Positions 4,961 to 58,978 of a DNA stretch of 64,000 bases are shown here, piece by piece. A program made the position numbers and the translations under genes. The notes beneath the pieces were generated by a model that did no database searches, was not told the DNA's origin, and worked only from the letters and a program-made list of their open reading frames with translations. The stretch's first letter is position 1. The number at the start of each line of letters is the position of its first letter. Source of the DNA: Protonemura montana (taxonomy: Eukaryota > Arthropoda > Insecta > Plecoptera > Nemouridae). The stretch covers positions 18,633,940 to 18,697,939 of the forward strand of contig OX387606.1 of the NCBI GenBank assembly GCA_947568835.1, given 5' to 3'.

Positions 4961-5026
4961 CGATTATCGAGGTTTAACGACGCATTGTTTTGACAGCTGG
5001 CCCTGTGGCACTGGTCTAATGGCGTT
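4961..5026 (-). mobile_element. 5'-truncated 5S-SINE tail, antisense
   Basis: The reverse complement carries CGCCATTAGACCAGTGCC and GCGTCGTTAAAC, matching the 3' end of SINE copy 1 (about 2066-2117). It is bounded by a perfect 15-bp direct repeat, GGTCAGGATATTTCT, at 4946-4960 and 5027-5041. It is therefore a real 5'-truncated insertion of only ~66 bp and not a deletion remnant. Confidence 0.85.
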
Positions 5027-5041
5027 GGTCAGGATATTTCT

Positions 5042-9925: not shown

Positions 9926-9960
9926 TACACGCTAAAAAAATTGGAGTCAAAAACCACTCC
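9926..9960 (+). repeat. Left terminal inverted repeat
   Basis: Starts TACACGCTAAAAAAATTGGA and continues into GAGTC..CCACTCC. It pairs with 13262-13296. Confidence 0.85.
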
Positions 9961-9967
9961 AAAAGAG

Positions 9968-10330
9968 TCAATTCTCACTCTTCTAATACGACAAAATGTG
10001 CCCTCTCCTTTGGGAGTGGAACTCGCTCTTTCGAATGAGTCATCTCATTTCACTCTTTCATTGAGTGAAATATTTGGACTCCATGAAAGGATCATTCTCA
10101 CTCTTTTAAAACGACAAAATGTGCCCTCTCCCTTGGGAGTGGAACTCGCTCTTTCGAATGAGTCATCTCATTTCACTCTTTCATTGAGTGAAATATTTTG
10201 ACTCAATGAAAGGATCATTCTCACTCTTTTAAAACGACAAAATGTGCCCTCTCCATAATGAGTGGAAGTCATTCTCTCGAAAGAGACATTTTATTTCACT
10301 CCTTTAACGAGTCAAAAATTTCGACTCTAG
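9968..10330 (+). repeat. Subterminal tandem array, 123-bp unit
   Basis: ATTCTCACTCTT followed by ACGACAAAATGTGCCCTCTC recurs at about 9971, 10094 and 10217, a 123-bp period. The first two units are nearly identical and the third diverges after about 45 bp. Because 123 is 41 codons, a spurious 86-codon frame (9941-10201) stays open across it. The units are dense in GAGTG/CACTC, suggesting transposase-binding subterminal repeats and not coding sequence. Confidence 0.85.
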
Positions 10331-10714
10331 TTTCGAAATATTCGAAAATTTCCTGGGATTGCAATGCTCCAAAACGAGTGAGTGAAAGAATTCATTGGAA
10401 TCCTGTAAAAAGGATAATTTCGTACGCCTTGATAGACCTGTCACCTGAAGTTGTTTATTATTTTTCGCTAGATGCTCGTGTGCATGCATTGCTGCATTGC
10501 AAGTGCATCGCATGATCGTACATTTTACTCCTTACGTGACATTTTTATTTTAGTCATGGGCAAGGTCTATCAAGCTGTACTTTTTGAAGGTGGAAATATT
10601 ACAACGAATTAATTTCGGATCATAAAAATATTTTATTGAAAACAGAAATAAAAATTGAATTTTAAGCAGAAAAAATGGGTGAAATGATGTATTGAATTTT
10701 TTAAATTCCACAAT

Positions 10715-11317
10715 GAACTCTCTATAACTGAAATTAGAGGTCAAGAGACAAAAATTAGAGAATGCAGATCGCCACGATTAAATTGCAATTTCAAGAGAAA
10801 TTAACCGATTCATCATTAAGTATAGCAAGTACAACTGGAAGTAGAGTTCAAAATGCAGACATAAAACCAACTCTCTATAATGAAATTAGAAGTGAAGAGA
10901 CAAAAATCAGAGAGAACAGATCGCCATCGATTAAATTACAATTTTAACACAAATTAAACAATTCTTTGAATGTTCTCAAGGTCAGAGAAATTCTCATTTA
11001 AGTAAACAAATTTATTGAATTTATTTAAACTCTTTTTGTGTGATATACTTATCTTAAATATAGATAAATATCTTAAGTATAGCAAGTACAACTGGAAGTA
11101 GAGTTCAAAATGCAGACATAAAACCAACTCTCTATAATGAAATTAGAAGTGAAGAGACAAAAATCAGAGAGAACAGATCGCCATCGATTAAATTACAATT
11201 TTAACACAAATTAAACAATTCTTTGAATGTTCTCAAGGTCAGAGAAATTCTCATTTAAGTAAACAAATTTATTGAATTTATTTAAACTCTTTTTGTGTGA
11301 TATACTTATCTTAAATA
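10715..11317 (+). repeat. Tandem duplication, 257-bp period, plus degenerate third copy
   Basis: The segment 10818-11060 is repeated base for base at 11075-11317 (offset 257). A 14-base AT-rich junction, 11061-11074, separates the copies. A third, diverged partial copy lies just upstream (about 10715-10793), sharing AACTCTCTATAA and CAGATCGCCA. Perfect identity over ~243 bp implies a very recent duplication or an assembly artefact. Confidence 0.9.
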
Positions 11318-11422
11318 GTTTAATACTTTAGTCATAACTCCTAGCATATTTCAAATTCCAAGCGATCTGGGTAGCAATACTAATGTTCTCATAAATTTTA
11401 TATTGTCATATTGTCATAAATT

Positions 11423-12905
11423 TTAATCAATTTGAACGTTCAACAGGGACGCGTCTAGCCCTGCTGTAGCCGCAAGGTTGCTTGACTTAACATTCATTAC
11501 ATACAGGCGAGTTTCGACAAAATTGTAGAAACGTATCAAGTTCGATGGGTATGCTACATTAAAAACATAGAACGTTTTAAACAACAAGTCAAAAGCCCTT
11601 ACTGGGCACTTGCCGACTGCGACATGAAATCTATCCGCGACGATAAAGTAATCGCCTCCCTCCTCCAGGCTGCCAACACACAGGAGGAACGGTTGGACCT
11701 CTCCCCCCCCCCTTGCGTGCTCGCCTTGACGAAGGCGGTAATGTCTGCCCCTGCCTGAAAGTATCGACATTAAATTAGAGCTTGTTTTAATAGTCAATCT
11801 TGTAATCAGTGTGACGTTGCTGGACAGGTGTGAGGTGCATGATATATCTTATCATGGAGAAGATACTTCAAGCTTTATTTACAGTGACTTATTTAATTTT
11901 TTTCACAATATCCTATTTAGTGATGACTTTAATTTAATAAACTGATGGGTTTGGGAAAATTGTCAGGATTTTTACAAAATCATACAGTGTAGACACGCCA
12001 TTATCTATTACAATTTATGAAGCCAAAATTTTGAAGAGCATCATTTTATAGCGAAAGTGGAAACAGTCAAACTAAACGTACCTTAACAAACCGCAAAAGA
12101 GAGTCGTTGGGGATCGCCGTTCCCTTTTCAAGTACTGCGTCGCCAGAAGTTTTTTCTTGCTGGCGTTGCATGCTGGCAGCAGAGTCGCCAGAAGCAAAAT
12201 TGCTCGAAGATCATCTGCAAATGTCAAATTACCAGTGGAAATTATTAATATTCTTATTACCTATCGCGATTCGCGATAGGTAATAATCGAAATCATAAAA
12301 CATGTGGTGTTATGCTTACCATTTGCTATTTTTTTTTGACATATTGAAGGACTTGGGTTTGAATTGTTCGCAATACTTCAGTATCCGAGAAGTACAGCTT
12401 TTTCGGAACTTCGATAAAAAGTTTGTTGACTTGCTCTCTTCCATTCGGTTGAATTCGCGATTTACCTGAAACAAGTAGGAAATGATTGGACTGCAAGGAT
12501 TATAAGAACGTTTTATCAAAGAGTTTGCTGTTTAAAAGTATAATGCGTGCAGCGTACCTGGTTACCATCAAAGTCGATCAGCCTAGGGTACTTCCCAATG
12601 ATGTCAGTTATGGAAGGCGAATTCTCGTTTATTTCTTTCCTCCTCATTTCAAATGTATCGTCCATAAGATCTTGGATTTCACCTTTTGTCGATTCATCTG
12701 GTTTAGTAAACTGCATCAGAGTTACCTGTAAAGCAAGCGTTGAAATTTACCTATAAAAATCCAAGTACCTCGTGTGCAATTCAAAGTTTGATCATAATGT
12801 TCTATTACCTTTGAAAGCATTTGCCAATTCTTCCGGAATTCCTTTTTTGATTAGAAAAAGTCGAAGACCTTCCAAGTCCAAATTCATAACACATTCTTCC
12901 TCCAT
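11423..12905 (-). pseudogene. SAMD3-like gene remnant, five exons
   Basis: The inferred minus-strand exons are 12905-12809, 12725-12558, 12465-12320, 12202-12082 and 11754-11423. Each internal edge has a GT donor and AG acceptor; exon 4 needs a weaker GAG acceptor, because the nearby CAG acceptor at 12215 would read into TGA. Exon 1 starts at ATG (MEEECVMNLDLEG) and resembles the first helix of a SAM domain (LRLFLIKKGIPEELANAF). Exons 2-3 contain IIGKYPRLIDFDGNQ joined to VNREFNRMEESKSTNFLSKF. Exon 4 has VLEKGTAIPNDSLLRFVK. The last exon has QPFLLCVGSLEEGGDYFIV, then VRAFDLLFKTFYVFNVAYP, and stops at 11425-11423. This order matches uncharacterised SAMD3-like proteins as I remember them. Exon 1 ends in phase 1 but exon 2 is open only in phase 0, so part of the SAM domain is missing. 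Exon 4 to exon 5 is off by one base at a G10 run. It is therefore probably inactive. The biochemical function of the family is not known to me. Confidence 0.7.
12254..12286. repeat. 33-bp perfect palindrome in an intron
   Basis: Arms TTATTACCTATCGCGA (12254-12269) and TCGCGATAGGTAATAA (12271-12286) are exact reverse complements around a single T. It sits in the 117-bp intron between exons 3 and 4 of the SAMD3-like remnant. Confidence 0.95.
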
Positions 12906-13261
12906 GGCGAGTTGCGACACGCACTGATCACTTCACTTCAAGACCGAGGTAGCTACTGAATGAAAGTTAAAAATGCTCCGAATCGACAGTTCGCTGGGTA
13001 GTAAGATATGAGTCACACTCTCATAATAGTTGAATGACTGTCGAAATGTAGATTCAGCATTTCTCACGTAAGCTCCAGCCACTGCTCCAGCCTCAATCCG
13101 GAGTTAACCGCTTCCTTTAATAAGTACCCGATACCCTGCACTCATTCCAAAGAGCTAATTCTGTGCACTCCTTGTCAAAGAGTGGGAAAACAACACATTT
13201 GGGAGTCAATATTACAGAAAGCCACTCTTTCAAGTGTCAAATTAGACGCCACTCATTCAAG

Positions 13262-13296
13262 GAGTGAAATTTTCACTCCAAATTTTTTAGCGTGTA
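13262..13296 (-). repeat. Right terminal inverted repeat
   Basis: On the minus strand it starts TACACGCTAAAAAATTTGGA and ends in TTTCACTCC. It mirrors the left end with a few mismatches. Confidence 0.85.
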
Positions 13297-25425: not shown

Positions 25426-25451
25426 CCCCCCCCCCCCCCCCCCCCCCCCCC
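25426..25451. repeat. Poly-C tract (C26)
   Basis: Uninterrupted run of 26 C. Confidence 0.95.
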
Positions 25452-25599: not shown

Positions 25600-25860
25600 C
25601 GGCGGGCTGGGGGTGCCCCGTTTATCTGGAGCCTCCTCGCGACGGGCGAGTTAGCGACGCACGACCACTCCTAGTTGCCGCAACGGACCGCCGACGCCGA
25701 CGACGCCGCGGGTTCATCTTTGCCGCCGACGCCGACGCCACCGACGGCGGCGTGCGTAGCATCCCAACGCGACAACCTGTCTGACCAGAAGAACAAAGCG
25801 GCGCGTTCTGGAAATCGTGGCTGGGTGGGATGGGGATGGGAGGTGCGGGCGGCTGCGGCA
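25600..25860. repeat. GC-rich patch with GACGCC-type hexamers
   Basis: Repeated GCCGACGCCGACG motifs (about 25688-25750) lie in a CpG-rich patch. Open frames across it on both strands are repeat-driven (Asp/Ala/Pro or Arg/Ser). The same hexamer recurs near 37.2 and 52.28 kb. Confidence 0.7.
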
Positions 25861-26408
25861 CTAGGGAAGAATTTTTATTTTATGCTTCCAGTTCCGTTTG
25901 ATTCTGTTCAGTGTCACGCAGATATAAAAAGTATTTTTTTTTAGCAACCGTTGTCACGAATTTAAGCAATGGATTTGATAGGCTAAATGTTAACCTCAAA
26001 AACAGTTGGCTTTTATTGAATATTGATCCTTCGTGGTTAAAATAAGATGGTTCATTTTTTCCTCAACACGCTAAGAAAATGTTGGGAAATGTAACATTCT
26101 CCCGAGTGTATTTTACGGGCAACGGAAAGCCTATGTACTTTTACAATCTTCTTCTAGCGACGTAGATTTACATAATACCTTTTCGATAACGGTCAAATAG
26201 AAACGTAATGCCCTGCAAAACTTGTTCGACCGGCACGTACCTATATATAGGGCATGCTAGTTGAAATTGAGCACGATTTTTGGTACATAAAGGACACAGA
26301 TGTAATTGGGTGCGTCCATTGTTCCGTCTGCGACGTCGACGACTTTAGGAACAGTCGACGTGGGGGTGAGAGGCGTCGGGAGCGTCGGCGTTGTGAAAGG
26401 AGGATGGA
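25861..26408. other. No gene seen
   Basis: AT-rich, then a GACGTCGACG/GGCGTCGG-type GC-rich stretch at 26330-26400. Confidence 0.45.
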
Positions 26409-26432
26409 GGGGGGGGGGGGGGGGGGGGGGGG
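26409..26432. repeat. Poly-G tract (G24)
   Basis: Uninterrupted run of 24 G. It creates artificial Gly/Pro stretches in frames at 26254-26649. Confidence 0.95.
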
Positions 26433-29400
26433 CGTTGGACGTGCCGGACTTAGCGTCGAGTGAGATGTCAGTTAATGAACGAAGGGACAGAAGTAGAATA
26501 ACTAAGCAGACCACACAATAACTAACTGTCGGAGTTACACAAGGATTCTCCGTTATAATTACAAGGGTTGAGATATATAAATGTACATTAGAGGGGGAAG
26601 AAGACATAGAAATGTTAAGAAAAATATCTGCCCTTCGATACGTGGTCAAAGTGGAAAGGGGCTAATAGTTTTGCATTGCAAAGTTTGAGGACATCGAGTT
26701 TGAAATTGTACCCACGTGGGTCTTTGCGCTCTCAGGATCTAATAGCAAACACCACCCTTCGCGCCATCTACGGAGTCATCACTAAACAACTACCAGTAGG
26801 CTACAAATGTTCCCCTTCTCCCCAAATTAGAGGTACCAAATTCTCCCCTTAGTTTCTGGGTTTATTCCGATCGGATAAATAGATCGGTAAGGATAAGACG
26901 AAACACAATTCATTTAGGTCTGTTGTCAGCAAAATATTACAGCCAAGTCATCAGAAATCAGTGACCACCAGACCATCAGATCGTAGGCAGCCATCCCATA
27001 GCTTACTCCAGGATGCAATCGACCATAATCCACTAAAGATCATCCTTTGAAGCATTGATATTCAGGGAACGAATGTTACTTGACGACGCAAATGTTATTT
27101 GACCCGTGTTCAATGACGGAGACGGTAAATTGACTTCGGAGACGGTATATTGCACTGAGAGTGTATACCTATAAGGATAAAGCTAAAAAACGCCATTGGT
27201 ATTGCCTACATGCGCCTCATGGAAGTTATAAATAAAATTCTTTCGTGAACCTAGTACCATACCTAGAAACTGTTGCAATGCCTTCAACTTTCCATCCAAC
27301 CGATTCTATTTTCTCATGTTATGCAACGGAAAATCTTTCACATTCGATTCCCACACGGTCACCACTAATTAGCTAACAGAGCGTAAGTCACCGATGGCGA
27401 TACCCGAGCTGTTGTTAATAAATATCTAATATAACAGCTCTGGCAATTTTCGTGAAGTGTCAAAGCATTGACTGTAATATTGCATCGGTGGAAAGCACTT
27501 GCTATGTGCTACACAGCAGCATCAAAGTTTGCCCAATGTCGACAAGCAGGCGTTTGCAGGGCTAGCCAGTGTAGCGTATTGCTGAGTTCAGTTTAGCGTG
27601 ACGACGAGCAAACATGGCTCGAATCATGGCCTGCCTGCATATAGGCCGCCCGAATGTATAGAGGAGAAATGAACGTCGTCGCAAATAAACCAGACGAACC
27701 GCGAACGCGGGGCAAAGACAACCAGCGTAGAAAAATAAACAACAATGTTGAACGTGACTTTAATGTATGATTTAGACGTAGTGCGGCTCCTGTTTAATAC
27801 TATTGTCACAATATTTTTTGTAGACCTTTGTCGGCCTTCAGAAGATTATAGAGGTAGGCTCATGACGGCAGGAAAAACAATTTTCTGAATGCTTTAAGTG
27901 GAATTTGCATAAGTTTACAGAGTAGCAAAAAACAAGCGAGGAATACCTTTATTGCTCTGTGTAGTTGATGCACTTGATCTAAAATCAATATATGCGTCCA
28001 TCCTTCAGGCTTACAAAATGATACCATGATTAAACTAGGAAAAGCAATCAACGTTAATTTGAACTCGTCTGCGCAGGCAAGTTCATTGGTGAACGTGGCA
28101 CCTCCACCGCTGAGAGACGCTGAGAGACGCAGCCCTCTCATCTCCGTCCACTGTCCAATATCCACCCCTGGTTTTTAGACTCAATGGCCATTGCATGAAT
28201 GGCCGGTTAGGGTCTATTGGCTACGTCATATAGGACGATATGGCAAGGGTATATAATATATTGGGGAGCGGGGATGGGGAATGAATGACCATCAGTGAGA
28301 GGTTGATGCGTGAAACAAGGAAGGACGCGGATGAATGCAGTGAATGCACTGATTAGTGAAGATGTTATGGGTGAATATAGTACTCATGGTTTCTGTGTGC
28401 TGTAGTGCGCTTGTGTTTCAAAAGGCAAAATGGTCAACCCCTGGCGCGACGCTATTATTTTGTTTTTGATGAAACATTGATTGTGACTGGTAGCAATATC
28501 AGTTTGTGTAGGCCAAGACTCTTATATAGATCTGCAAAATTATAATCGGTTATTTCTACTTATGTTTGAAACAATTTTGAAAACAATTTGAAAACTATGT
28601 TTGGTGATATAATGCTGCTTTAGTCATTGGTATTGTACTTGTACGTAAAGGGGAAAATGACTGCTGTGCAGGCTCATTCCGTAGCTTAAACGGCGAAATT
28701 TCCACTAGAAACTTGATTGTAGTAAATTGCATCCGAGTTTAATTGGAGTTAATTAGTTTCAATATGAATGAAGTTCGTATTTGCTTTTCATGGATTACTA
28801 AACAAAACGTTGTCCACGTGTATAGTATATGTTCGAGCTCAATGCATTAATTCAAGCATAAAGCATAAAGCATATATGGATGGCTCGAATTGTTTCGGGC
28901 ATCGGCTTGTAGTGCCCATGCACGCGCACATGGAAATCATATTCCCGACTTTCGCTTTCAATTAAAGGAAGTGTTTTACCCAAAAGCCGAGGACTTATCT
29001 GGAAAAAGAATAATTTACAAAAAGAAAAAAAAGTTTTAGTAGATTGGTGAAAATTTCCACATTCCCTGATCTTCTCCGTCAACTTTTTATCGCGGTCTTA
29101 CAATTAAGAAATACTCGAAAAGTTGAGCGATAAAAAAGTCTGCCATGCATCGCAATTTCCACACCTCGCCAAAGGTACAAGTGTAGAATATATTTCTCGT
29201 TTAAAAAGCGGTTCTCCAGCCGCATGCGAGCAGTACACGGAATAAATTACAAAGAAAAGTTTCTCCAATTGCTAACATACGCTGCCGTGCAATTATTCAA
29301 ATGTCAAATGCTCCAGCTCATAGCAGCGAGGATTATGAGTTTCGCACGGAATTTGCATACCTATATAGGCTAACAGTGGCGCGTTACGTTTTACATATCA

Positions 29401-40694: not shown

Positions 40695-42530
<1,836 letters not shown>

Positions 42531-43636: not shown

Positions 43637-46503
43637 AATTGGCTGCTCACAAAATGCAACTTTTGTTTCATTAATGCAAGGCAGAAGAACATGGTTGCTA
43701 CAAAACTCTTTTCACCCGCCTCTTTCTTTTATTCGCCAAGTTTTGGAAGTTATTGCGTCACGAGTCACTGGTTTTTATGTTACGACGGAAACACAATTTG
43801 AAATTGGATGGCGAATAAAAGGGAAAAATAGTGTAGCTACCTGGCCTGGAGAACGGCTGCCTATATATATATATATATATATATAGTACCTGAGTGAAGC
43901 CGCCACCAGCTCCGGCGAGCAACGGAAATGCAGAAGAAAATGCATTTGCATTGCATCACTTTGCGCACTCAATTTTATGTGGTCTCTCTGCTACTAGAGT
44001 AGACATCTTTTCCATCAAAAAGGACATTTTATAACTGCATTAAGGAATGATTGCACTGAAAGTGCACTGAGAATGATGCAGCTTTTATAATCTGCACCAA
44101 AATTCGGTGTCTATACGTAGTTAGTTTGATACTTATGTGCCAATAAAACTTTTCCACGTGAGAACCGAAGGAAACGAGTTCGTTCAATAACGTACCTTGA
44201 ATCGAGCTACTTTGATTGCGAATACGGTACCGCGTCAAGTTTGCGCTGCTGCTAGGCTAGATTAATATTCTCGGTCCCAGAATTGATTGCCTCAAAGGGA
44301 ACTAACGTTTCGATTAAACTGGAGAGAAAATCAAGAGGTAAAAATAGGGGGAATTTCAATATAATAACGATTAAAAGTGCTACATAGAACGAGTTAAACG
44401 AACCCAAATCTAACGAGCGATTATTTTTCAATTTGACTCTCAAGTTCGCTCAACGTGCTTTCATTTGCCATTACACTTTTATTTTTAAGTGTATGGAAAT
44501 TTGAACGCAAAAAGCCACCAGTTGACTTTTCAACGGAGCACAGCGAAAAGCTTTGTGTATTTTACAAAGCATACAGGAGCTGTCTCATCTTACTCGGCTA
44601 AAACAGTGTCGGCCACGAACGGTCATAATTCAAAATAGTAAAACTGATCCCAGACCAAAATGGGGCACTCATGGTTTTGATGTTTTCTTCACGTGGTGCG
44701 GCTATAGGTGTACATTTTGTGTGGGCACAGGAGTTGTGGGGTCAATAAATGTCTTCTCTCTCATCAGCAGTAGATTAAGTGTATATTGTTGAGGTGGGAA
44801 GACAGGCGTGCACGAGCGGACAAGTCGGGAAGAACCGGGAAGAACAGGGAAGATGAGGGAGCGAACAGATTGTGCTGGGACTTGAACTAATCGAGGCAGG
44901 GACTAGGCGAGTACGTGCAGATGAAACCTTTAGTGGAGCTGTAGTATCTCGCCACGGCGTTTGCTCTCACCATTACACATATTATTCTCATGTATCTACT
45001 GCAGAACGATATAGTAAATTGTAAAGTTAATTCCCTGAAAGGGGAAAATTTAACTCCGTGCGTCCATAATTTCGGTGCGTATAATAGGAAACAGTTCGGG
45101 TTGGTTTTTGAAATGAACCTGCAGGCGTGGCTTATCTGGAGTTGGTCTTGATTTTAAAACGAAATTTGATTCTCGTCTGGCTTTTCTTCTTGTCTGCTAC
45201 AATAGTTAAGTCTGTGTGATCTGCAAAGGAATGGTATGAAATTTCAGCGTCTTCTTGCTGGATTTGCTGGCGGATCGTTTGAAGCTTTGTGGCTGATGCA
45301 TATTACTTGGGTAAGATGATTGTCGTCTGCTCGCGTACCGAACCACACCGTCTTAGCTGGGATATGCACTGAATTCCGCGGTAAGATTTTACTAGGTAAA
45401 CGCTTCTCGCGTTTTCACTCGACGTGCACATCTAATTTCTCTGCATGCTGTAAAATTAGCATTTAATGAAATGGTTATCCAAAAATAATGAAAGAACTGG
45501 AAATCGCGAGTATTAAAGTTACACAAAGCAAAGTATGAAGCAAAGCCAGTTATTTGAATTTTTACAAACCCTAAATAGAAAACAACTAGCCTCTTGCAGG
45601 TGCATGGCTACTTTTACTGTATCTATCTACTAGTTATTGGAAAAAAATTGGAGTTACCTATTGGGTGGCCTATTATAATCTGATAGCTCTAATAATAATA
45701 GCTCTGATAGAGATAATTCATCTCTTTAAGAAAAACAAATTGCTTTTTTAAATCTTTAAAACTACATTTAAATCTACAAAATGAATCGAAAAATACCTCA
45801 TGACTCTTTACGATGGTTTTTAAACTCATGTCTACTTGATTTATCCTTAGCACTAGTTTGAACAAAAACTGTTTGAAATGGGTTTTGAATGCTAAGTAAA
45901 GGACAACTAAATTTCCCGACGCTTCGTAACATGTACCTAATAGTTACTTAAGATAAAATTAAGATAAAATTATTAAATAATAAAATAATAAATAATCAAA
46001 TAAAGAAAATAAAGATAAAAGATTAGACTACATTTTCAAAAAATTAACTGCTATCATTTTGGCTAGGAGTTTTTGACGCCAACATGCACTAAGAATCCAG
46101 CAAATGGTTTTCATCCAGAGCTTTTTTTTTTTTTTAACATTATGAACATCCGCAAAAGCAAGCAAGCAAGCAAGCAAGCAAGCTCCTGCCTTTCTTATCT
46201 TCATGTCTTAAGGCTATTTAAGTAGAGTTTGTGTAAAAAGAAAAGTGGTCTATCAGACGGCAATAACCGTAGCAAGGTGAAGTTGGAACCAATAGGTTGA
46301 GATCAAGAGGAGGCACCGGGACCCCGTGGGAGTCGAGCGACCGTTTCAACCGCGTAATATGTGTAACACATTGGAGAGAATTACATTTCCCGAATGGTTA
46401 CGCCAGGATCGTCAAACTCTACTAAAAAAAACACACAAAATGGCCGGTTTGCTGCAAACTAAAATATGGTATGATTTTTTGTGCTTTACTTTCGGAAAAG
46501 TAC
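43637..46503. other. No gene seen; microsatellites
   Basis: (AT)n lies at 43862-43885 and (AGCA)n at about 46157-46183. 45940-46020 is a simple A/T-rich tract. No gene-like frame was recognised. Confidence 0.5.
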
Positions 46504-46920
46504 CGAACGGTTTGGTGTGCTGGGAACACTGGTTCTCGTATGATCACCGTAGTTAAGCAACACTGCGCTGGGTCAGGTATTAGATAGGTGACTATCTTAC
46601 TCATATCCAGTTCTGTTCGGGAGAGAGGTTGGAGGAATGAAAGTTAGTACTGAAATTTCATTCGCCTTGCTTATCAACCTTTCGACAGCATGGTTTTGTG
46701 GAGGAATCCTGCTGTTCGCAGCGTACCGCCCTTCGGAAGAGAAGTTAAGCCTGAGGTCCCCTTAGTGCTCATTGACAGGCTATGAGTCGGCACTGAGTTT
46801 CCCCTCCCCTTATTTCTAGGCTAGGTTAGGTTAATTAGTCTTCATAATCACCCACTCATTTGCCATAATCACGTCATTAGGGTCCTTTATCAAAACACAG
46901 CGTCGTAAAAACACACAAAG
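46504..46920 (+). mobile_element. 5S-rRNA-derived SINE, copy 2
   Basis: Starts CGAACGGTTTGG and carries GTTCTCGTATGATCACCG, AGTTAAGCAACACTGCGCTG and TAGGTGAC, so both 5S-like promoter boxes are recognisable. The body matches copy 1 (GTTCGGGAGAGAGGTTGGAG; GGAGGAATCCTGCTGTTCG; CTTCGGAAGAGAAGTTAAGC). The tail GCGTCGTAAAAACACACAAA is shorter and has no AAT repeat. No clear target-site duplication was found, so it is older than copy 1. Confidence 0.85.
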
Positions 46921-57515: not shown

Positions 57516-58617
57516 AGGGGTGGCGGGGGAACACTAATTTCAATTCAAATCTGTTAGAAATACGTGACTGCACTTTCTCGATCGTGGAAGAAAGGTGGCT
57601 CCGGACAACATGTCGATGATTTTCATTATTGGAAAACGGGGGGACGTTTGAAAACGAACATAAAATTCCAGGTGAAGAAGTTTTAGTCAACATGGCCCCG
57701 TTGCCGAAAACACTTCTGAGCATTGATTTTAGATTTAAGCGTGCCCCTAAGTAAAGCTATATACATTAGGAAAAGTTAGCGAAATCGTGTGCACGCCCTT
57801 TCTTAATCTCCAGTCCGAATTTCAAATCTGATAAGCCAGTTAGTTTCAAATGTCTTAACGCAAGCCACCCTCGACCAGGGGAAATATTTCTCTTGACAAG
57901 ACCGTGCTATGCCCTCCAGCAGAAAACAGAATTTTCATTCCTGATTTTGCGGACGACCAGGCAAACAGTTGCGAGGACAGTGGTCCATCCACCCCTGGTG
58001 AAGGGGTTACATAGTGATGGGATTTCACAATGCGAATCATTTGTCAGAAAAATACAACAAAGGGTCGACCGTGGACGCCAGGGTTACCCCCAAAACGAAC
58101 CACGTCTGCTGTAATCATTTTTTTCTTTATACTCGTAGATACTGTTTTGTATTTTTTGTATTTTATACAATTACAATGTCTCGTTTTATGTGTGGGGAGG
58201 CCGCTATAACTCTTGCCCAACGTGTTGGATCGATCGTGGCAACGATTCGGACACTTCGGCTACAGATTTATCATCTGGAAAAAGAAGCCTAAACCACTGG
58301 TCAGTGCATTCTCGAAGATTTAACAATATCTCGTCAAACACGGTATTCCGTTTGGTGGAAAAAACAATAAAACAACCGTGAAAGTAAATGGACGTTCGTT
58401 GTGTATAGTATTTAACAGAATTAACGATTTAAAAAGGCATGCAGGTTTTTTTAATGATGAAAAGGAGGAAGGGAAGCGTGGTTTTGCAGGTTCACTGCGT
58501 TTGAGCCTGTTATGGGCAGAAAAACCACTCAAATTCACACTCATAGTTTCCAATCCACACCTTGAAAATAAAACAAATAAGAGGCCTCCCTTAATCCGTT
58601 TCTAAACGTCTATGGTA
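57516..58617. other. No gene seen
   Basis: Overlapping short frames at 57855-58605 are not recognisable. Confidence 0.45.
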
Positions 58618-58978
58618 TCGAACGGTTTGGCATGTTGCAAACACCAGTTCTCATGACATCATCGAAGATAATCAACACTGCGATGGAAAATGTTTTTGAT
58701 GGGTGACCATCATACATATGTCAACTTCTGTTTGGGAGAGGGATGAGTGGGATGAAAGTTAGTACTCGAATTGCTTATCAACCCCAGCATGGATTCGTAG
58801 AGGAATCCTGTTGTTCCCGATGGCGATGAACCGTCCTTTGGTAGGTTTGTGTTAATCAGGTGATCCTCTTGGTGCTCTTTGACAGGAATTGACTTCTGAT
58901 GACCATCTCCATCATCACCCACTCATATACAGACGCTCAATATCACAGTGCCAATTGTCAAAATGTCGTTAAAAAAAG
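58618..58978 (+). mobile_element. 5S-rRNA-derived SINE, copy 3 (degraded)
   Basis: Starts CGAACGGTTTGGC. The 5S-like head is decayed (ATCATCGAAGATAATCAAC; GATGGGTGACC survives). The body keeps GGGATGAAAGTTAGTACT, AGAGGAATCCTGTTGTTC and TTGGTGCTCTTTGACAGGA, and the tail ends TTGTCAAAATGTCGTTAAAA. It is about 80 bp shorter than copy 1 through internal deletions, with no clear target-site duplication. Confidence 0.85.

Follow-up and report, generated by a model that had tools for sequence, protein, structure and literature searches.

A terminal-inverted-repeat element enclosing a five-exon gene model and no recognisable transposase

The window, by which is meant the whole 64-kb stretch of DNA that was analysed, has a GC content of 40% and a CpG observed/expected ratio of 1.05. 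At 9926–13296 it accommodates a 3.4-kb element with terminal inverted repeats (TIRs) at its tips, which enclose a spliced gene model of five exons on the minus strand and no recognisable transposase (Table 1). The span narrows to 9928–13294 if the outermost TA is a duplicated target. In self-BLAST the element matches only itself and is thus present as a single copy within the 64-kb window, and the protein model finds there its own exons and otherwise three matches only, at E values of 0.9–6.7.

Table 1. Coordinates, strand and basis of the features assigned within the element.
Feature	Coordinates	Strand	Basis
Left terminal inverted repeat, TACACGCTAAAAAA...	9926..9952	+	27 nt, 25/27 matching 13270-13296
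Left subterminal array, GAGTG/CACTC in both orientations	9944..10327		motif counts
123-bp tandem unit, 2.9 copies, within left array	9971-10327		tandem-repeat analysis
Left half without Pfam match	10716..11317		six-frame Pfam search
Exon 5, long frame VQPFLLCVGS...AFDLLFKTFYVFN..., ends in stop codon	11754-11423	-	open segment and splice sites
Exon 4, frame DDLRAILLLATLLPACN... from 12214, open; alternative first base 12202	12214-12082	-	open segment
Exon 3, VNREFNRMEE...; A9 run at 12337 near end	12465-12320	-	open segment and splice sites
Exon 2, DESTKGEIQ...YPRLIDFDGNQ	12697-12558	-	open segment and splice sites
Exon 1, MEEECVMNLDLEGLRLFLIKKGIPEELANAFK	12905-12809	-	open segment and canonical splice sites; no Pfam match
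Right subterminal array, GAGTG/CACTC; between right tip and start codon	13101..13278		motif counts
Right terminal inverted repeat	13270..13296	-	pairs with left arm

Elsewhere in the window a beta-tubulin gene is located at 41134–42530, in at least two pieces. Its best match in the PDB is 8snb (598 bits, the next scoring 590), a few substitutions are encountered at positions common to the two best PDB matches, and the gene is possibly a specialised or relaxed paralogue. Entry 8snb is a sea-urchin sperm axoneme, which gives no more than a hint of affinity given how strongly tubulin is conserved. These features mark the window as nuclear DNA of a eukaryote, probably an animal. A 5S-headed SINE-like repeat occurs as three interspersed copies (1694–2058, 46502–46860 and 58615–58887), 69–83% identical in pairwise comparison, each beginning with a match to Rfam RF00001 (5S rRNA) that for the third copy lies below the gathering score. 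Directly after the first of these copies comes the left arm of a 58-nt inverted repeat (2060–2117 and 4972–5029), whose arms are 93% complementary and 2.85 kb apart and which possibly represents the tail of the repeat in opposite orientations or another element. The window also contains several long C/G runs, including one of 26 C at 25426–25451.

The TIR arms of the element are 27 nt long and 93% complementary, and are paired by self-BLAST with an E value of 1e-4. Matching stops just outside a TA that is present at both tips, the flanks past this TA being unmatched. The outer TA may be a target-site duplication, in which case the repeat reads (TA)CACGCTAAAAAA, or it may be part of the repeat, which then begins TACACGC. 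Exact inverted pairs of 14 bases had been considered as a further line of evidence, as the window contains 290 of them compared with 1–5 in 20 resamplings; the count was set aside because all but 27 of these pairs (263 of 290) consist of homopolymer alone. A look-alike at 26067 (CACGCTAAGAAA) was likewise discarded: the self-BLAST list offers no convincing inverted partner for it, the surroundings inspected being 25600–26900. The TIR 14-mer is found in at least 120 stretches of viral_contigs, and none of the 120 loci listed as carrying it has it in both orientations; the extended TIR has no match, a search of the plasmid collection returned no match, and a full-text literature search on the TIR letters yielded 24 papers, none on transposons as judged by title.

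At both ends of the element lie subterminal arrays of a short motif. Occurrences of ACTC and GAGT together amount to 22 in 425 nt at the left end (52/kb) and to 8 in 166 nt at the right end (48/kb), approximately eight times the window density of 6.2/kb, and not one of the equal-sized windows outside the element reaches the count of either array. The 33 motif copies listed, 24 of them in the left 495 nt and 9 in the right 197 nt, are disposed in both orientations and have a commonest-base consensus close to AANGAGTGAAA (plus its inverse). The first GAGT is placed at position 19 from either tip, which does not constitute independent evidence as it falls inside the TIR; the first inverted copy of the motif is found just past the TIR, 31 nt from the left tip and 32 nt from the right. 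Further towards the centre, the left half of the element harbours a 257-bp tandem duplication (10816–11317) with 100% matches and a partial third copy of the same unit (10716–10811, 85%). This duplication is either a very recent event or an assembly artefact. A different structure, a 33-bp palindrome with fully complementary 16-nt arms and a 1-nt spacer, occupies 12254–12286 in intron 3.

A six-frame Pfam search of the element, in which stop codons were read as X, returned no family at E values up to 1 in any of the six frames. When 5 kb on either side was searched, four weak matches appeared at E values up to 0.1, all below the cut-offs and none to a transposase. The identical method recovered both tubulin domains at 40–45 kb, a positive control that was run on the three plus-strand frames only. 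This approach would overlook a transposase that has diverged beyond the reach of Pfam. The inverted termini, the GAGTG/CACTC arrays at both ends and the lack of a recognised transposase had all been proposed in a previous sequence-only reading of this DNA, and each of the three has been borne out.

The gene model is composed of five open segments that extend on the minus strand from 12905 to 11423, all bounded by canonical GT-AG sites, and the exon coordinates imply introns of 111, 92, 105 and 327 nt. To judge from these sites and from the open segments, the transcript would be spliced. The right array separates the start codon from the right tip, the two being 391 nt apart. Polyadenylation-like hexamers are present inside the element and count for little, as AT-rich DNA contains many of them. 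The GC content by codon position is 48/36/51% in the exons versus 35/27/36% in the introns; in these figures one short segment was read in an incorrect frame, and introns have no real frame by which positions could be assigned. Codon preference, trained on the tubulin gene of the window, assigned −0.153 to the modelled frame versus −0.168 and −0.284 to the shifted frames, so that the modelled frame is not clearly favoured, and among 777 open stretches 6.6% attain the G1-G2 measure. Because these last two measures are indecisive, the coding support derives from the open frames, the splice sites and the contrast in GC content.

How far the gene has decayed depends on the acceptor chosen for exon 4. 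Exons 1–3 join in frame. The acceptor before 12214 leads to an immediate stop in exon 4; the exon-4 frame from 12214 that resembles the SAMD3-like family (DDLRAILLLATLLP) does not share the phase of exon 3, and this model takes two more changes to arrive at the long exon-5 frame. If exon 4 instead starts at 12202, behind another AG that could serve as acceptor, the reading stays open from the ATG through exons 1–4 into exon 5, for 219 residues, and a single break precedes the long exon-5 frame (VQPFLLCVGS...YVFN). Between one and three frame breaks are accordingly required, and the two models have only one break in common, bracketed around the run of ten G at 11712. Homopolymer runs of at least six bases in the modelled exons are A6 at 12848, A9 at 12337, A6 at 12155 and G10 at 11712. 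An initial model with breaks at three such runs (A9, A6 and G10) proved not to be forced, its exon-4 break having rested on likeness to that family, and it is superseded because the acceptor at 12202 removes both that break and the preceding one. A single frame break may thus be all that interrupts this copy of the gene. The sequence-only reading had described a 'spliced minus-strand gene remnant': a five-exon model with canonical splice sites bears out the first part of this description, whereas 'remnant' may overstate the decay and is withheld here, as the G10 break sits where slippage or an assembly error is likely.

The gene is possibly SAMD3-like, as that reading named it: it would share with such proteins a short SAM-type start, a YPRL block with an EFNRM-like segment after it, a LLL--LLP segment and a QPFLL-VG ... 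AFDLLFK--YVFN end. Exon 1 may encode the initial half of a SAM-type domain. Only 32 residues of the SAM-type segment precede the first intron, which points either to a truncated domain or to an incomplete start model. No match, SAM included, was obtained at E values up to 10 when the exon pieces and the joined model were compared with Pfam, a search in which the HMMER filters drop most weak matches, and the PDB yielded none for the gene protein at E values up to 10. The motif AFDxLFKxxxVFN, drawn from the gene itself and from the SAMD3-like proteins, occurs once in the window and in none of 100 shuffles. In viral_contigs, peptides of exon 5 led to 21 stretches and those of exons 2–3 to 14, none of which was confirmed; a degenerate motif found nothing, a looser one found 11 stretches, none of them a relative, and tblastn of the gene model against the loci retrieved gave nothing at E values up to 5. 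The single stretch retrieved from genome_contigs (L121) was dismissed as a relative, being a 54-residue open frame with no further likeness. A structure prediction for the exon 5 frame had a mean pLDDT of 38 and was unusable. Among the literature matches listed, as judged by titles and abstracts, no paper links SAMD3 with transposons, those on CACTA/Mirage/Chapaev elements, SINEs and echinoderm transposons contribute nothing decisive, and the terms SAM, SAMD and sterile alpha have no occurrences in the available part of PMC10027918. With one copy in the window, no relative in the collections searched and no Pfam match, the suggestion that a SAMD3-like gene defines the element, or that the element is a new transposon type, is unsupported.

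On balance we consider the element to be probably, with moderate confidence, a non-autonomous cut-and-paste TIR DNA transposon of a eukaryotic and probably animal genome. It has the paired TIRs without a recognisable transposase that characterize such transposons, and it is most likely moved by borrowed machinery. The combination of a TIR, a subterminal array in both orientations and an internal gene is the layout of CACTA elements, for which reason the element is read as non-autonomous, with a transposase from elsewhere. In our best reading the end architecture is CACTA-like and the gene inside is carried as cargo or, with lower probability, serves the element as an accessory gene. A transposase made at another locus would recognise the ends, and the subterminal motif may be bound by a protein that the element encodes or that associates with the transposase, by analogy with TnpA on CACTA repeats. 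The gene would have been acquired or kept as DNA, introns included; it would then travel as cargo or, with lower likelihood, work in the service of the element.

The choice formulated earlier, between a gene of the element's own and a captured passenger, remains a fair statement of the alternatives. The passenger form, in which the best explanation becomes Pack-type capture of a host-gene fragment that lies between non-autonomous ends and has no role in transposition, appears to us quite possible, if short of probable. The brevity of the SAM-type start, the lack of a Pfam match and the retention of introns are consistent with it, and capture of host fragments between constant subterminal regions is documented as frequent in CACTA elements (PMC8195511, in the portion available). 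The gene model does, however, keep its start codon, splice sites and stop, which is more than is usual for a random fragment. Few breaks are needed, and only that at G10 is common to both exon-4 models; this suggests recent integrity and speaks for the converse view, that the gene encodes a SAM-type, TnpA-like accessory protein that would bind the GAGTG arrays and regulate or assist transposition, the transposase gene having been lost from this copy. The whole gene model is located inside the ends, its start codon behind the right array conforms to the layout of an element promoter, and the left 1.5 kb, in which no coding is recognisable, could be the site of the lost transposase. Nevertheless, the window contains a single copy, so that ends and gene are not seen travelling together, Pfam detects no DNA-binding domain, and the SAM-type start looks truncated; we regard an own gene as somewhat unlikely.

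Two other proposals concern the ends themselves. A host gene flanked by chance by unrelated solo ends, or enclosed in a nested arrangement, might account for a structure seen at only one locus in which the exact 257-bp duplication and the 33-bp palindrome bear witness to local rearrangement. We deem this very improbable, as the ends are inverted, an inverted motif copy lies 31/32 nt from the tip in both, and a single motif makes up the two arrays. The question of class is compatible with any of the preceding explanations: the TA at both tips would suit a Tc1/mariner-type or other TA-targeting element instead of one of CACTA/Mirage/Chapaev type. Pfam reveals no transposase domain of any kind, subterminal arrays in both orientations are not known to be typical of Tc1/mariner, and we consider this classification quite unlikely.

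Uncharacterised SAMD3-like genes are abundant and multi-copy in animals. A more far-reaching conjecture, which we hold to be unlikely, is that a TA-targeting TIR family has the SAMD3-like gene as a recurrent core constituent, that the encoded protein attaches to the GAGTG arrays much as TnpA does to its repeats, and that the abundance of the gene in animals is due to this transposon family and not to host genes. If copies elsewhere have both ends and gene, a role in transposition could be assigned to a poorly understood protein family of animals, and binding of the protein to a defined DNA motif would become testable. If copies share the ends only, the locus would exemplify gene capture, with introns kept, by a TIR element in what is probably an animal genome.

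The features of the element can be set against those of known systems. With the uncharacterised SAMD3-like proteins of animals the gene would have in common a YPRL-type block and an AFDxLFKxxxVFN-type end; compared with them it is apparently shorter and possesses only the first part of the SAM-type start, this likeness being one to which no tool match corresponds. Tc1/mariner elements are characterized by a TA duplication and a DDE/D transposase: the element has a TA at both tips, as a duplication or as part of the repeat, and, by Pfam, no transposase domain.

CACTA (En/Spm) elements, with TnpA and TnpD, have a short TIR beginning CAC, to which that of the element is alike provided that the target comprises the outer TA. 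Inside both of their ends they carry arrays of short motifs, and such arrays, direct and inverted, are present here too (subterminal direct and inverted repeats of CACTA are described in an excerpt of PMC8978399). In these elements the transposase binds the TIR (PMC8978399, in part) and TnpA the subterminal repeats (PMC8195511, in part). Most CACTA copies are without both ORFs (PMC8195511, in part), and copies that lack the ORFs and contain captured sequence are common (PMC8195511 and PMC8978399, as far as the excerpts go), a condition that the element resembles. On the other hand, its TIR reads CACGC where CACTA/En-Spm (CMC) elements start with CACTA or CACTG, and the TA at its tips, whether duplication or part of the TIR, differs from the 3-bp target duplication of CACTA, the range for the superfamily being 2–3 bp. 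Transposase_21 of CACTA has no match in the element, as expected for a non-autonomous copy. Membership of CACTA is not claimed in view of the CACGC terminus, a target that is TA at best and the absence of a transposase. The animal CACTA family Spongebob has a printed TIR that starts CCCAGCC, unlike that of the element, whereas the Hydra element is reported to have a 2-bp target duplication, with which the TA described here would compare if it is a duplicated target, and copies without an identifiable intact transposase occur in the family as they do at this locus (PMC4298943, in the portion available).
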